This document shows positions 17,112-35,105 of a stretch of DNA of 45,131 bases, one piece after another. Origin of the DNA: Lactobacillus sp. 0.1XD8-4. Lineage in GTDB: Bacteria; Bacillota; Bacilli; Lactobacillales; Lactobacillaceae. The stretch covers positions 1-45,131 of the forward strand of contig NZ_RDBR01000011.1 of the NCBI RefSeq assembly GCF_009663775.1. The letters run 5' to 3'. Within the stretch, counting starts at the first letter, position 1, and the number at the start of each line of letters is the position of its first letter. A program made the translations under genes and the position numbers. The notes below the pieces were generated by a model. The model searched no databases and was not told where the DNA came from. It was given only the letters and a program-made list of their open reading frames with translations.

Positions 17112-17960
17112 CTAATTGTTATCTGGTCCGAGATAATTACTGTCTTGACCGAACCACTTTTCATTAAGCTTTCGTAATTCACCATTTTTTTGAAGATTGC
17201 CAAGCCCATTATTAATCTTTCTTTTCAGGGTCTTATCGCCTTCCCTCATCCCTACCGCATAGTGTTCTACTGGTAATTCTTTACTAATGTAGGTTCGATA
17301 GGAATTACTATTTGGCTGGTGCTTAATGTAGTAGTTCGCATACACTTCATCCATAAGTATTCCTTGGATACGGTTAGCATTTAAATCAATAAATGCATTA
17401 GGAAAGGTGTCATATAAGACTGGAGTATGATTCTTTATCTTATCTTTTAAAAGTTTGGGCTTCTCATCTAATACTGTTACCCCTGTTGAACCATTTTGGA
17501 CCCCTAATACCTTTCCTTTCATATCATTTAAATTCCTTATGTCGCTTTTCTTCTTTGTTACAAGAATTTGTCGATTCTCTAAATAGTAACGACTAAAAGC
17601 AACCTTTTTTGCACGACTTGGATTAACAGAATAACCATTCCATAACAAGTCAATTGTTCCATTCTTTAACTCTGTTTCTTTCATCGACCAATCAATCGGT
17701 TGAAAATCAACTTTTATTCCATACTGCTTAAAAACAGCCCGTGCGAGATCAACATCATAACCTACTAACTTCCCATTTTTTTGACGAAACCCCATGGGAA
17801 CAAAGCTATCATCTAGTCCTACAATTACACGTTTTCGTTTTTCAATCCTATTCCAAGTATCCTGGGTGTCCGCGCGCTCGGTAACACTTTCACAGCCACT
17901 AAGCAGAATTGCGGGAACCAGTAATAGAAGAAGCAGCCAAATTGCTTTTATTTTTTTCAT
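17112..17960 (-). CDS. Polar amino-acid ABC transporter substrate-binding lipoprotein
   Basis: A 282-residue periplasmic-type binding protein of the SBP_bac_3 family, anchored outside the membrane as a lipoprotein. The N-terminus has KK, a Leu-rich signal segment and the lipobox LLSGC with C23 as the lipidated residue. Family stretches include FVPMGFRQKNGKLVGYDVDLARAV-like ligand-lobe sequence and LKNGTIDLLWNGYSVNPSRA. It is the last gene of a permease-ATPase-binding protein operon. Substrate cannot be read directly; the T-box leader implies an amino acid whose tRNA has U73 (glycine, cysteine or possibly threonine). I favour cysteine/cystine because this transporter class includes cystine importers; this is inference. 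ATG start with GGAGG upstream. Confidence 0.92.
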   Translation of the reverse strand: MKKIKAIWLLLLLLVPAILLSGCESVTERADTQDTWNRIEKRKRVIVGLDDSFVPMGFRQKNGKLVGYDVDLARAVFKQYGIKVDFQPIDWSMKETELKNGTIDLLWNGYSVNPSRAKKVAFSRYYLENRQILVTKKKSDIRNLNDMKGKVLGVQNGSTGVTVLDEKPKLLKDKIKNHTPVLYDTFPNAFIDLNANRIQGILMDEVYANYYIKHQPNSNSYRTYISKELPVEHYAVGMREGDKTLKRKINNGLGNLQKNGELRKLNEKWFGQDSNYLGPDNN

Positions 17961-17977: not shown

Positions 17978-18628
17978 CTATTCACCTTGCCGTTGGTCTA
18001 TTGGCTGAACCTTTAAGATATCATCAGCAATATCTTGAGCAAAGTCTAAATCGTGAGTAACAATTAATTGGGTCATTCCATCTTTTTTTAACCCTAAAAT
18101 AATATTTGCGACATCTTTTCGTAAATTAGGGTCTAATGCTGACGTTGGTTCATCGTAGCAAAGAATTTTAGGTTTCATTGCTAATGCACGGGCAATCGCA
18201 ACCCGTTGCTTTTGACCCCCAGAGAGTTGATATGGATACAAGTTTCCCTTAGTATTTAATCCTAATTCTTCAAGTAATTTTTGTGCTTCTGCAATTGCCT
18301 CTTGCTTATCTTTCTTTAATACCATGATCGGTGCCAGAGTAATATTTTCCATTACTGAAAGATTAGGAAAAAGTTTATAGTCTTGAAATACTACCCCGAT
18401 TACACGGTCAGCTGCATCAGTTCCTTGCGGGTCAAATTGACGCCCATCAATGAAGAATTCGCCACTATCAGGCGTCTCCAATCCTGTTATACAACGAAGA
18501 AGGGTCGTTTTACCAGCACCGGAAGGCCCAACAATGCAAAGTATTTCACCATCTTTAACTGTTAAATTAACACCATCCAAAATTTGCCGGTTACCAAAAC
18601 TCTTTTTTAAATTTCGAACTTCTAACAT
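17978..18628 (-). CDS. Polar amino-acid ABC transporter ATP-binding protein
   Basis: The 216-residue ATPase energises the importer encoded on both sides of it. Walker A GPSGAGKTT lies at about 34-42, the Q-loop is VFQDYKLFPN, the signature is LSGGQKQRVAIARAL, Walker B is ILCYDEPTSALDP, and the H-loop is VTHDLDFA. It is somewhat shorter than the usual 240 residues of the GlnQ type, ending soon after the H-loop region, with all catalytic motifs intact. ATG start with GGGAGG upstream; 15 bases follow the permease gene. Confidence 0.94.
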   Translation of the reverse strand: MLEVRNLKKSFGNRQILDGVNLTVKDGEILCIVGPSGAGKTTLLRCITGLETPDSGEFFIDGRQFDPQGTDAADRVIGVVFQDYKLFPNLSVMENITLAPIMVLKKDKQEAIAEAQKLLEELGLNTKGNLYPYQLSGGQKQRVAIARALAMKPKILCYDEPTSALDPNLRKDVANIILGLKKDGMTQLIVTHDLDFAQDIADDILKVQPIDQRQGE

Positions 18629-18642
18629 TTGTCATTCCTCCC

Positions 18643-19290
18643 TTACTTAAAGTATGCGTAACATTTCTCAACTTGCCGCAAGATCAAGGTGCAAATCCCA
18701 ACTAAGATAAGATAAATCAAACCAACAAGCATTAACGGAACCAAGGTGACGTCTCGTGAAGTTGCAACATTTCCAGCCCGTAGTAAGTCGCCAAGACCAA
18801 TAACATATACCAACGATGAATCCTTTACTAAGTTAATAACTTCATTTCCGATCGATGGAATAACGATTTTAATTACTTGCGGAATAATTATTTTACGAAG
18901 TGTTTGCCAGTAACTTAACCGTAAGACACGAGCTGCTTCAAATTGTCCTTGATCCACTGATTGAAAACCACCACGAAATATTTCAGCAAAGTAGGCAGCA
19001 TAATTAAGAATGAATGCAACAAGAGCCGCATCATAACGTTCAAATACGATGCCGATGATTGGTAAACCGTAAAAAACAAAAATTAACTGTAAAAGTAGCG
19101 GGGTTCCACGCATTAACCAAACATAAATTTCTAAAATCCACTTAAGCGGCTTAATTTTAGAAGTTAATCCTAAGCTAACTAAAATCCCTAGTGGAAGTGA
19201 GCCAACAAGTGTCCAGAAGAAAATTTGAAGAGTAAGCAGCGCTCCTTGAAATAATGAAGGTAAAATTTCACTTATGTATTGCATTGACAT
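18643..19290 (-). CDS. Polar amino-acid ABC transporter permease
   Basis: A 215-residue integral membrane permease of the HisM/GlnP type with about five helices. The cytoplasmic ATPase-contact (EAA) loop is at AARVLRLSYWQTLRKIIIPQ, and the region before it, YAAYFAEIFRGGFQSVDQGQ, is typical of the family. It forms the channel with the ATPase and lipoprotein encoded downstream. It is the first gene after a 450-base leader holding a T-box riboswitch with two T-box/terminator modules, so the whole operon should respond to tRNA charging. ATG at 19290, nine bases after AAGGAGG. Confidence 0.95.
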   Translation of the reverse strand: MSMQYISEILPSLFQGALLTLQIFFWTLVGSLPLGILVSLGLTSKIKPLKWILEIYVWLMRGTPLLLQLIFVFYGLPIIGIVFERYDAALVAFILNYAAYFAEIFRGGFQSVDQGQFEAARVLRLSYWQTLRKIIIPQVIKIVIPSIGNEVINLVKDSSLVYVIGLGDLLRAGNVATSRDVTLVPLMLVGLIYLILVGICTLILRQVEKCYAYFK

Positions 19291-19333
19291 TTATCATTGC
19301 CTCCTTAAATAATTGCTTTGTTAAATAACAGTT

Positions 19334-19445
19334 AAAAAAATCCTCTAGGAATTAATTCCTAGAGGACGAATAAGTCGTGGTTCCACCTCACGTTTACAAA
19401 CATCTCACAATGTCTGCCTCATCAAGTCTACTTAAAAGTTTGAAA
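19334..19445 (-). ncRNA. Second T-box antiterminator/terminator module without its own Stem I
   Basis: The minus strand has a second T-box core, AGGTGGAACCACG (19388-19376). It is followed by a perfect 13-bp terminator stem (TCCTCTAGGAATT, 19341-19353, with its complement to 19366) and seven T. Only about 60 bases separate it from the first terminator, too few for a specifier-bearing Stem I. Both modules keep UGGA as the tRNA-end pairing bulge, so they should read the same tRNA class. It lies immediately upstream of the permease ribosome binding site. Confidence 0.8.
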
Positions 19446-19711
19446 TCAAAAACGCCCTCGAGCCAAATGGCTACGAGGGCGTTTCCGCGGTTCCACCTCA
19501 TAATGCTACCTTCTCACGAAAAATAGCCTTAGTGAGTTCATTAAATAAACTCCGTGCTGTAACGGGCTTCCCCGAGTCTTCCTACTGTGGACTTCAGAAG
19601 ACCAACTCACAGATGTGATTCAAACTTTAGTATAGGTCTACTTCCACCAACCAAGACTCTCTTTGCTATACTTAAAATTCTACTAGTCTGTTCACTGTCA
19701 TTTATGATGTT
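19446..19711 (-). ncRNA. T-box riboswitch leader (full-length) of the amino-acid ABC operon
   Basis: Transcript from about 19711. Stem I candidates include GAGTCTT pairing with AAGACTC, flanking GTGGA/TCCAC and an AGTA element. The T-box core AGGTGGAACCGCG lies at 19498-19486. It is followed by a terminator with a 10-bp stem (AACGCCCTCG with CGAGGGCGTT, 19451-19483) and five T. The UGGA bulge predicts a tRNA with discriminator U73 (Gly, Cys, or in some Firmicutes Thr). I could not place the specifier codon with confidence. In such leaders uncharged tRNA stabilises the antiterminator and lets transcription continue. This element and the second module fill the 464-base gap 19291-19754. Confidence 0.88.
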
Positions 19712-19717
19712 GTAAAT

Positions 19718-19746
19718 ATCTTATACTGTAATACCATTCATGTCAA
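19718..19746 (-). promoter_or_regulatory. Promoter of the T-box leader and ABC operon
   Basis: Perfect TTGACA (19746-19741) with TAAGAT at 17 bases (19723-19718); an alternative -10, TATAAG, lies two bases closer. It begins nine bases past the mreD stop. No terminator separates mreD from it, so read-through from mreBCD could also enter the leader. Confidence 0.75.
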
Positions 19747-32167: not shown

Positions 32168-34822
32168 CTAAGCATTTTGCAGAGAAGCCAAGCGGTCTTT
32201 AGCAGCTGTTAATTTTTGTTGCCATTCAGTTGCTTTTTGGCGTTCTTCTTCAACCACTTTTTCCGGTGCATTATCAACAAACTTCTTATTACCGAGTTTC
32301 TTTTCTGACCGTTCTACCTCTTTTTCAAGCTTAGCAATTTCTTTTTCCATCCGAGCACGTTCTTCATTAAGGTCAACTAATTCTGCCATTGGGATATAAG
32401 CCTCAGCGCCAGCTAAAATCCCACTCATTGCAAGCTTTGGTGCTTCTACCTCTTTGCTAATTGTGAGTTTTTCAGGATGACAGAAACGTTCAATGTAGTC
32501 ACGGTTATCATTTAACATTTGAGCTAAATGATCATTGTCAACTTTTACTAAAATATCAACTGGCTTAGACATTGGCGCATTAGCTTCATTCCGAATATTC
32601 CGAACTGCCTTAATTAATTCAATTAGACTGCTCATTTGTTCCGTGGCCACTGGATCGTCAAGATCAGGAGTGGCAACTGGGTATTTAGCAACCATGATTG
32701 ACTTACCATCATGAGGCATTGACTGCCATAATTTTTCGGTAACGAATGGCATGATTGGATGTAACATCTTAAGAGTTTGATCAAGGACATAGCCAAGAAT
32801 GTTCTTAGTATCGGCTTTTTCTTCATCAGATCCGTTATTAAGCTTTTCCTTAGTCATTTCGATATACCAGTCACAGAAATCGTTCCAGATGAAATTGTAA
32901 AGGGCGCGGCCAGCTTCACCAAATTCAAATTTTTCAAACTGTTCATTGACTTGCTTAACTGTCGCATTCAAGCGGCTTAAAATCCACCGGTCTGCTAAAT
33001 CCCACTTACTTTTATCTGGAAGAACCGGTGCAGGCATATCACCAAGGTTCATAATAACATAACGGCTTGCATTCCAAATCTTATTAATGAAATTCCAAGC
33101 AGCATCCATCTTAGTGTAACTAAAGCGAATATCCTGACCAGGAGTCGAACCAGTAATTAAGAACCACCGTAAGGCATCGACACCGTATTTTTTAATAACA
33201 TCCATTGGGTCAATTCCGTTACCCAGTGATTTACTCATCTTGCGACCCTGTTCATCCCGAATCAATCCATGAAGTAAGACGTTCTTAAACGGAGCGCGAC
33301 CGGTAAATTCAAGTGATTGGAAGATCATCCGTGAAACCCAGAAGAAAATAATGTCATATCCAGTAACTAATGTATTGGTTGGGAAGTAACGCTTAAAGTC
33401 AGCAGAGTCGGTATTTGGCCAGCCCATCGTTGAAAATGGCCATAATGCGCTAGAGAACCATGTATCTAAAACATCTTTATCTTGTTCCCAATTTTCAGCA
33501 TCTTTTGGTGCTTCCATCCCCACATATACTTCGCCAGTTTGCTTATTGTACCAAGCCGGAATCCGGTGTCCCCACCAAAGTTGCCGGGAAATAACCCAAT
33601 CATGAATATTTTCCATCCATTGAGTAAAAGTATGTTCAAAACGTTCTGGCACAAAGTTTACACGATCATCAGTATCTTGATTCTTAAGAGCAGCTTCTGC
33701 TAATGGCTTCATCTTTACAAACCACTGAGTAGAAAGACGCGCTTCGACCTGAACACCAGTCCGTTCAGAATGCCCAACCGAGTGAACAATCGGATCAATC
33801 TTTAGCATATAGCCTTGATCTTGAAGGTCCTTAACAATTGCTTCCCGAGCTTCAAAACGATCCATTCCTTCGTACTTGCCAGCATTTTCGTTCATTGATG
33901 CGTCTTCATTCATCGTGTTAAGTTCTGGAAGATTGTGCCGCTTTCCAACCTTAAAGTCGTTCGGATCATGGGCTGGAGTGATCTTTACCATCCCGGTACC
34001 AAATTCAGGGGTTACATATTCATCGGCAATAATTTCAATTTCACGGTTCACAAGCGGTACCATTACTTTTTTACCAACTAATTCCTTATACCGCTCATCA
34101 TTAGGGTTAACTGCAACAGCTTCATCACCAAACATCGTTTCAGGACGGGTTGTTGCAATTTCAATATAGTCTTTACCGTTAAATGTTGTTCCATCTGTAA
34201 ATGGATATTTAACATGATAAAAGGCACCCTTGTCATCTTTATGGATAACCTCAATATCAGATAAAGCAGTCCGCGCTTGTGGATCCCAGTTAATAATGTA
34301 AGTTCCCCGGTAAATCAAACCCTTGTTATAAAGATCAACAAAAACCTTCCGAACAGCCTTATTTAATCCTTCGTCAAGGGTAAAACGTTCCCGGTCGTAA
34401 TCAACAGAAATTCCCATCTTTGCCCACTGTTGATGAATAATATCTGCGTATTCATCTTTCCAGTCCCAGACTTGTTGAACAAATTTCTCCCGGCCAAGAT
34501 CATAACGAGAAACACCTTGTTTACGAAGACGAGCTTCAACTTTAGCTTGGGTAGCAATTCCGGCGTGATCCATTCCGGGAACCCACAAAACATCATATCC
34601 TTGCATCCGTTTTTGCCGAATAATCATATCTTGTAAGGTCGTATCCCAAGCATGACCTAAGTGAAGCTTCCCAGTAACGTTCGGTGGCGGAATAACAATT
34701 GAGTAAGGGTGAGCTTTTTTATCTCCACTTGGTTTAAAGAATCCTTGGTCGATCCACCATTGGTACCGTCCCTTTTCAACAGTAGACGGATCATACTTGG
34801 TAGACATATCTTTTTCTGTCAT
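32168..34822 (-). CDS. valS: Valine--tRNA ligase
   Basis: ValS charges tRNA-Val. The 884-residue class I synthetase has HLGH at 54-57 (the HIGH motif), the CP1 editing domain in residues about 200-380, the RKMSKSLGN motif at about 525-533, an anticodon-binding domain, and the C-terminal coiled-coil arm ending in [14 protein letters not shown]. Length is normal. The start is the ATG at 34822 with AAAGGAG eight bases upstream; a TTG six codons earlier overlaps that site. A T-box leader precedes it, so expression should rise when tRNA-Val is uncharged. Confidence 0.98.
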
Positions 34823-34865
34823 AACAGAAACTCCTTTCAAAAATTAATCATCATTCATGCATTAA

Positions 34866-35105
34866 CTAAAAAACGCCCTATCACAATCGATAGGACGAAT
34901 TAATCGCGGTACCACCTAAATTGGACATAGTTATTTACTATCTCCCACTCTATCATCTAGTAACGGTAATGAACCGGATATCCCTACTTTAATTTCAGTA
35001 TATCAGCTCCCGAACTACCTTCATAAAGTTTAACTAATCCCCTTGCACTATCAGGATTTCGCTGATGAAGTACCGCTTTATTACTCTTTCGGTCAATGCT
35101 TATTA
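34866..35105 (-). ncRNA. T-box riboswitch leader of valS
   Basis: The T-box core AGGTGGTACCGCG is at 34917-34905 on the minus strand. A terminator follows (stem CG-CCTATC with GATAGG-CG, 34872-34897) with six T. The UGGU bulge fits a tRNA with A73, as tRNA-Val has. A Stem I candidate helix ATCAGC/GCTGAT and the linker CCGTTACTAGA are visible. GUA and GUU Val codons occur in the 3' half of the candidate Stem I, but I could not fix the specifier position. It accounts for most of the 326-base gap 34823-35148. Confidence 0.9.

Follow-up and report, generated by a model that had tools for sequence, protein, structure and literature searches.

The leader of a hisYZ*X-type ABC operon in Limosilactobacillus, at positions 19334-19704 (minus strand) of the window, i.e. 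the whole stretch of 45,131 nucleotides analysed, contains one Stem I followed by two discriminators. Its first module is a complete T-box, with Stem I, Stem II, Stem IIA/B, an antiterminator (AT1) and a terminator (T1). The second module consists of a Stem III, an antiterminator (AT2) and a terminator (T2), without its own Stem I. A strand located before the second Stem III (P3'') is complementary to the 5' strand and loop (P5') of a hairpin, named P, of the first module. This complementarity is conserved and covaries in the related leaders compared, and the corresponding P5'-P3'' helix is predicted in minimum-energy folds. The leader is probably a partially tandem, His-specific transcriptional T-box in which one tRNA-binding arm would serve two gates in series by means of a P5'-P3'' exchange. 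Partially tandem T-boxes are themselves already known; what is new here is hairpin P, located between Stem IIA/B and the first Stem III, together with the P5'-P3'' exchange helix.

From 5' to 3', the leader is organized as promoter-like site, Stem I, II, IIA/B, P, III, AT1, T1, linker, III, AT2, T2, ribosome site and hisY. The elements and the genes of the operon are positioned as follows:

19718-19746, minus strand: promoter-like site TTGACA, 17 nt, TAAGAT (pattern match only, 10/12 consensus), adjoining Stem I upstream
19604-19704, minus strand: Stem I and flank (RF00230 model positions 1-104 aligned)
19615-19617, minus strand: specifier codon CAC (His) in GAA-U-CAC-A
19575-19603, minus strand: Stem II (RF00230 alignment)
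19560-19574, minus strand: Stem IIA/B (RF00230 alignment; with Stem II, 19560-19603)
19534-19552, minus strand: hairpin P, GAGUUUAU-UUA-AUGAACUC, local stem of about 7-8 bp, 3' of IIA/B and 5' of the first Stem III
19541-19552, minus strand: P5', the shared strand, made up of the 5' arm of hairpin P and its loop
19503-19530, minus strand: Stem III of module 1 and flanking purines (RF00230 alignment)
19475-19499, minus strand: antiterminator 1, GAGG-[UGGAACC]-GCG-GAAA-CGC-CCUC (parsed arms and RF00230)
19489-19495, minus strand: bulge of the first core
19448-19482, minus strand: terminator 1, hairpin of -24.3 kcal/mol and U5, 13 bp with one bulge
19424-19435, minus strand: P3'', UUAAGUAGACUU, pairing with 12/12 P5' bases (9 Watson-Crick and 3 G-U)
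19393-19420, minus strand: Stem III of module 2 and flanking purines (RF00230 match of module 2 alone)
19362-19389, minus strand: antiterminator 2, GAGG-[UGGAACC]-ACGA-CUUAU-UCGU-CCUC (parsed arms and RF00230)
19379-19385, minus strand: bulge of the second core
19334-19367, minus strand: terminator 2, hairpin of -17.7 kcal/mol and U7, 12 bp
18643-19290, minus strand: hisY-like ABC permease, which opens the operon (family search)
17978-18628, minus strand: ABC ATPase, Z* (family search)
17112-17960, minus strand: family-3 solute-binding protein, X (family search)

According to these coordinates, the starts of the two cores are separated by 110 nt and AT2 lies 58 nt from the end of T1. P3'' is found 12 nt downstream of the T1 U-run and is transcribed ahead of the second Stem III. 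Three promoter-like sites were listed, and none of them is located between the two modules.

The sequence-only reading had described a complete T-box with its terminator, then a second core with its own terminator but no second Stem I, in front of an amino-acid ABC operon. The T1 and T2 hairpins, the family searches and covariance searches with RF00230 (gathering score, 93 bits) agree with this description. Over the leader, RF00230 gives a single match (19704-19359, 113.2 bits, E 2.1e-24), in which Stem I is joined with the second core, the first core being handled as an insertion. When the region without module 2 is searched (19440-19711), a complete T-box ending at the first core is found (109.3 bits, E 1.3e-25). 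Both scores are above gathering for the succession Stem I-II-IIA/B-III-antiterminator of a transcriptional T-box. Module 2 alone (19330-19445) matches model positions 137-219 only, with 29.4 bits and an E value of 2.1e-5, which is below gathering; this match corresponds to Stem III and the antiterminator, the 3' third of a T-box without Stem I. The covariance search thus recovers the second antiterminator that had been recognized by reading. Taken together, the three matches indicate two discriminators for one Stem I. No second Stem I was found between T1 and the second core, as a fully tandem T-box would have, and the presence of two antiterminator/terminator units behind one Stem I corresponds to the partially tandem form. 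Since one match spans both modules, counting RF00230 matches can overlook a second gate.

T-box specifiers are read in the register GAA-N-codon-purine. In this register the specifier of the leader reads CAC (His), and the same register also fits the T-box that precedes a valS-like ORF in the window (GUA). The CAC specifier fits the downstream genes, whose order matches that of hisYZ*X, a permease-ATPase-binding protein operon placed under His T-boxes in Lactobacillales in the pertinent part of PMC9413887. None of the operon proteins reaches an amino-acid-specific NCBIfam equivalog cut-off; hence the histidine assignment rests on the specifier and on the literature, and histidine is the predicted substrate of the transporter. 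A Thr specifier (ACA), read in another frame, was considered and rejected, as it breaks the rule of a C at the third specifier position given in a passage of PMC7583486, and as the operon is of the his type.

We then compared the leader with its relatives. Alignment of homologous leaders, which the sequence-only reading had called for, shows both modules in 47 of 48 Limosilactobacillus loci, drawn from 50 genomes, two of which have no close hisY match. The exception, L037, is devoid of leader: at this locus (G035) the entire T-box leader is gone and an mreD-like stop is directly followed by the hisY start, through either a deletion or an assembly effect. More broadly, the partial two-module form is present in many Lactobacillaceae and Enterococcaceae. 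The two-core pattern gives 61 matches in 60 of 395 Lactobacillales genomes, and 59 of the 61 are upstream of hisY (30/30, 18/20 and 6/6 by separate checks, and 5 by position); one of the two others sits in an ileS-like leader. With a wider core spacing, 13 matches are obtained in 13 of 390 genomes, 10 of them before hisY. Among 80 named hisY loci, 44 have an upstream T-box core and 36 do not. The 44 comprise 32 partial doubles (6 from Limosilactobacillus), 10 singles and 2 leaders with cores 283-286 nt apart; these two, L132 and L135 (286 and 283 nt, respectively), resemble full tandems by their spacing. In the genome of the window, no second core was found within 200 nt at the other 27 RF00230 matches, by a regular expression that overlooks cores departing from it and matched nothing at 8 of the 28 loci.

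The two gates are conserved in this collection. From 186 leaders, 132 have two cores 80-170 nt apart; 135 were parsed, including 3 variant cores, and yielded 109 unique antiterminator sets. In L114 and L159, the second core is a variant outside the first core expression. Over the 109 leaders, helix A2 of the antiterminator pairs within its own module at 439/440 positions in module 1 and 440/446 in module 2, with compensatory changes, values that are reached partly by selection, as the parser selects arms that pair. In the controls, the paired fraction is 0.86 in shuffles and 0.83-0.90 with arms crossed between modules. Helix A1 shows no contrast between modules in the same 109 leaders (cis 0.93 and 0.85, crossed 0.82 and 0.86), and its full pairing, which follows from the at least 4 A1 pairs that the parser needs, is not claimed as evidence. 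A T1-type hairpin is found in 108/109 leaders and a T2-type hairpin in 109/109, with median energies of -19.65 and -20.3 kcal/mol, respectively. T1 is the stronger of the two in 53/108 leaders, and L040 has the sole T2 weaker than -10 kcal/mol. Two gates in series, as first proposed, are supported as the likely logic of the leader.

A terminator as strong as T1 and kept in all 109 leaders could nevertheless be a fail-safe. In that case T2 would catch T1 leakage, the P5'-P3'' helix would only compact the leader or restore T1, and AT2 would never bind tRNA. The existence of single-module relatives (10 of the 44 named loci that have an upstream T-box core) goes in the same direction. However, if T2 were simply a terminator, there would be no need to conserve a Stem III, a UGG bulge and an antiterminator whose A2 pairs are compensatory. 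Moreover, a dead AT2 would leave T2 closing off expression under starvation as well. We thus regard a simple fail-safe as unlikely and retain two tRNA-responsive gates as the preferred reading.

What could connect the second gate to the only Stem I is the complementarity between P3'' and hairpin P, which has a median length of 13 bp and reaches 12 bp in the window. It was first seen by reading 31 leaders side by side and then tested in all 109. Examples are L136 from Lactiplantibacillus, with 15/15 bases paired, L120 from Companilactobacillus, with 13, and L138 from Lacticaseibacillus, with 13 including one G-U. The median energy of the P5':P3'' duplex is -19.1 kcal/mol within the same leader, compared to -11.1 kcal/mol for strands swapped between leaders and -10.7 kcal/mol with P3'' shuffled, and for 62% of the leaders the native pair falls within the top 5% of the swaps of that leader. 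Likewise, the best ungapped helix has a median of 13 bp versus 8 in swaps; it exceeds the 95% level of shuffles in 88/109 leaders and the 99% level in 62. The best long-range helix measures 10-19 bp in 90/109 leaders, and at least 10 bp are formed in register in 84/109.

Such a match could be a by-product of the duplication of module 1, P3'' descending from P3'; about the first 5-8 bp, those of the stem, are expected from duplication alone, and 11/109 leaders have a best helix of at most 8 bp. The pairing, however, extends into the P loop. Of the four bases that follow the local P stem, a fraction of 0.77 is paired (102 usable of the 109 leaders), whereas a plain copy would give 0.505 and permutation gives a mean of 0.467 (maximum 0.578 in 500). 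Sliding the register by 1-3 nt lowers this pairing to 0.32-0.46. The leaders outside the original 31 (74 usable of 79, close relatives included) give 0.774, with a permuted mean of 0.473 and a maximum of 0.647. With 73 distinct P5' 12-mers (66 usable), the observed pairing is reached in 0/1000 permutations, although permutations overstate independence for leaders that share descent. In addition, the compensating pairs differ between leaders, with A-U, U-A, G-C and C-G pairs at positions 7-10 of P5'-P3''. A mere remnant of duplication is thus very improbable, and as a group the leaders show what is expected of a strand exchange, namely covarying P3''-P5' pairing beyond the local stem. Single-module leaders of Listeria and others appear, by eye, to have hairpin P, and P therefore probably predates the duplication.

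Minimum-energy folds, calculated leaving aside tRNA, pseudoknots and kinetics, are consistent with an exchange. Local P is predicted in 105/109 transcripts ending before AT1, and P5'-P3'' (at least 6 bp) in 105/109 transcripts reaching module 2. The latter number drops to 19 with P3'' shuffled and to 26 with P3'' taken from another leader. The gain in minimum energy, obtained by barring all P3'' pairing, has a median of -17.3 kcal/mol and amounts to -12.8 kcal/mol in the window. The signal varies among leaders: 21/109 are not above the 95% level of shuffles, in 10/109 a register other than the usual one gives the best helix, and L231, L233 and L235 retain local P in their minimum-energy fold. 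The 11 leaders with the shortest helices include both Leuconostoc-type leaders, L146 and L235 (5 bp). In L133, the second module carries its own P hairpin (by eye), the P5' stem has no in-register match and the fold contains just 5 long-range pairs; this leader agrees with the view that a P helix, whatever its origin, is required by module 2.

Both cores of the window have UGGA, from which the sequence-only reading expected a tRNA with U73. This expectation does not hold for the single tRNA-His recovered from this genome, which has C73 facing G-1 (ARAGORN on 12/30 tRNA loci; 68 tRNA matches listed), so that the fourth UGGN base, A in the window, does not match the discriminator base. Among the 109 leaders, this base is A, C, T or G in 90, 8, 9 and 2 module 1 cores and in 68, 23, 12 and 6 module 2 cores, respectively. 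The G that would pair with C73 is thus rare in both modules. Pairing of C73 to G-1 in tRNA-His would leave only CCA to be read, which possibly accounts for this rarity. We infer that, as C73 faces G-1, the discriminator-base match in UGGN is not strict for His.

The lower conservation of the fourth base in module 2 (A in 68/109, against 90/109 in module 1) looks as if selectivity were relaxed, and module 2 keeps its UGG bulge and Stem III. Both features could be read as a module 2 independent of Stem I, with any uncharged tRNA, or a second one, stabilising AT2 through its free CCA end. We find this still less likely than the fail-safe: it leaves without a role the P5'-P3'' helix, through which module 2 is linked with module 1 on its Stem I/II side, and a free acceptor end reports no particular amino acid. 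Between the two options left side by side in the sequence-only reading, a Stem I serving both antiterminators or a free acceptor end, the conserved P5'-P3'' helix thus favours the former. It provides a base-pair-level answer to how one Stem I could serve two antiterminators. As judged by eye, about 2 nt separate the end of P3'' from the UGAGG (or alike) that leads into Stem III, and P3' is spaced likewise. Because this spacing is repeated, module 2 would take the place of module 1 by Stem II and the tRNA.

Helix formation in the transcript, its timing, docking, tRNA hand-over and the effect on expression would then proceed in four steps, the first two of which are the standard T-box mechanism. 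In a first step, uncharged tRNA-His would bind Stem I/II and its CCA end would stabilise AT1, hairpin P being closed locally; with charged tRNA, transcription would stop at T1. In a second step, the polymerases that have passed T1 would transcribe P3''. In a third step, the 5' part of P3'' would pair with the open P loop, used as a toehold, and then displace P3' from P5'. As a result, Stem III-1, AT1 and T1 would be looped out, and Stem III-2 would be set roughly as far from the P helix as Stem III-1 had been. In a fourth step, module 2 would dock at the same Stem I/II, where a second test, at AT2/T2, would be made of the tRNA-His already bound or of a new one. Full expression would require two successful tests, giving lower leakage and a steeper response.

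In its strongest form, the proposal is that of a riboswitch swapping its own expression platform, with a toehold-started co-transcriptional exchange taking out the antiterminator already used and docking a fresh one under the same bound tRNA, so that the sensor is read twice in series. We give this form an even chance. If true, it would amount to a proofreading-like AND of two tests performed in time by one sensor. A natural RNA would then make two decisions in succession with a single bound ligand, a design that could serve for low-leak RNA switches.

The leader shares with the transcriptional T-box (RF00230) Stem I and its specifier, Stems II, IIA/B and III, the antiterminator with its UGGN bulge and the competing terminator. 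It differs by the second discriminator and terminator, the extra hairpin P and the long-range P5'-P3'' helix. A structural class with duplicated terminator-antiterminator elements was reportedly described by Vitreschak et al. 2008; our leader has the duplicated antiterminator/terminator units attributed to that class, and adds the exchange helix and its covariation. The sequence-only reading was right that partial duplications are known as a class: PMC7583486 mentions partially tandem T-boxes in a passage that gives no anatomy, and describes how they act as unknown. The closest case by operon and amino acid is that of the tandem His T-boxes found before the histidine transporter in five Enterococcus species, a single T-box being present in most genomes, and double T-boxes are said to give a sharper response (relevant parts of PMC9413887). 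Compared to that account, the form described here is partial, is present in many Lactobacillaceae and Enterococcaceae, and can have both modules spanned by one RF00230 match. Co-transcriptional strand exchange in riboswitches, the subject of PMC9756952 and PMC10907184, shares with the proposed mechanism the invasion of an earlier helix by a nascent strand; here, by comparison, a whole expression platform would be swapped under one sensor. A 2025 survey of contiguous riboswitches considers, in its definition, tandem units each with its own aptamer (PMC12452182), and a second module without Stem I would therefore not fit that definition. No description of the exchange helix was found in the open-access papers searched, a set that does not include the Vitreschak 2008 survey.

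Not all partially tandem T-boxes have the exchange, as judged from the other leaders compared. No helix above shuffles was found in L237, before an SDF symporter (193/200 shuffles as good), nor in L249, before trpE (126/200). In the latter leader (G363; trpE by Pfam), the two modules are accompanied by what looks, by eye, like a repeat of the sequence preceding the first Stem III, and module 2 may carry its own copy. Among the non-His partial tandems examined, only L243/L256 (G333, the same locus), before an amino-acid permease, has a comparable helix: a 16-base match with one mismatch, equalled in 1/200 shuffles for L243 and 0/200 for L256, joins the module 1 linker to a segment after T1. Among 10 genomes of this genus, two cores are present in L256 and L257 and a single core in 8. 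The cores of L257 are 230 nt apart and its helix is not above shuffles (50/200); the helix of L256 is thus an isolated case.

A further family of the class was also examined. The scan of the class gave matches in 10/299 genomes, 8 of them in this family, and the scan of the family gave 10 matches in 9/41 genomes. The P exchange was not seen at its usual place in 8 leaders. In L269, a 14-base match with one mismatch is found elsewhere (1/100 shuffles), and over 10 leaders a shifted position gives a weak signal (cis median 20.6 versus 17.4 for swaps). For a version involving Stem III, only 2/10 leaders, L268 and L272, beat 98% of shuffles at the expected place. These data are only suggestive of a looser form of exchange in this second family, in which module 2 would borrow the 5' strand of module 1 Stem III. 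In L266-L273, L276 and L277, partially tandem T-boxes of this family, module 2 seems to be without its own Stem III 5' strand and, in some of them, to match that of module 1. The two downstream proteins scanned in this family are a DAHP synthase (L272) and a chorismate mutase (L271).

Two other leaders deserve mention. In L217 (G431:C34), an ileS-like leader, a long palindrome containing GGTGGTTCCACC is seen by eye downstream of the T-box terminator. In the window, positions 34888-35105 (minus strand) correspond to an ordinary complete T-box (126.8 bits) with the GUA specifier and a UGGU bulge, and the ORF downstream of it (32168-34840) reads by eye like a valyl-tRNA synthetase.
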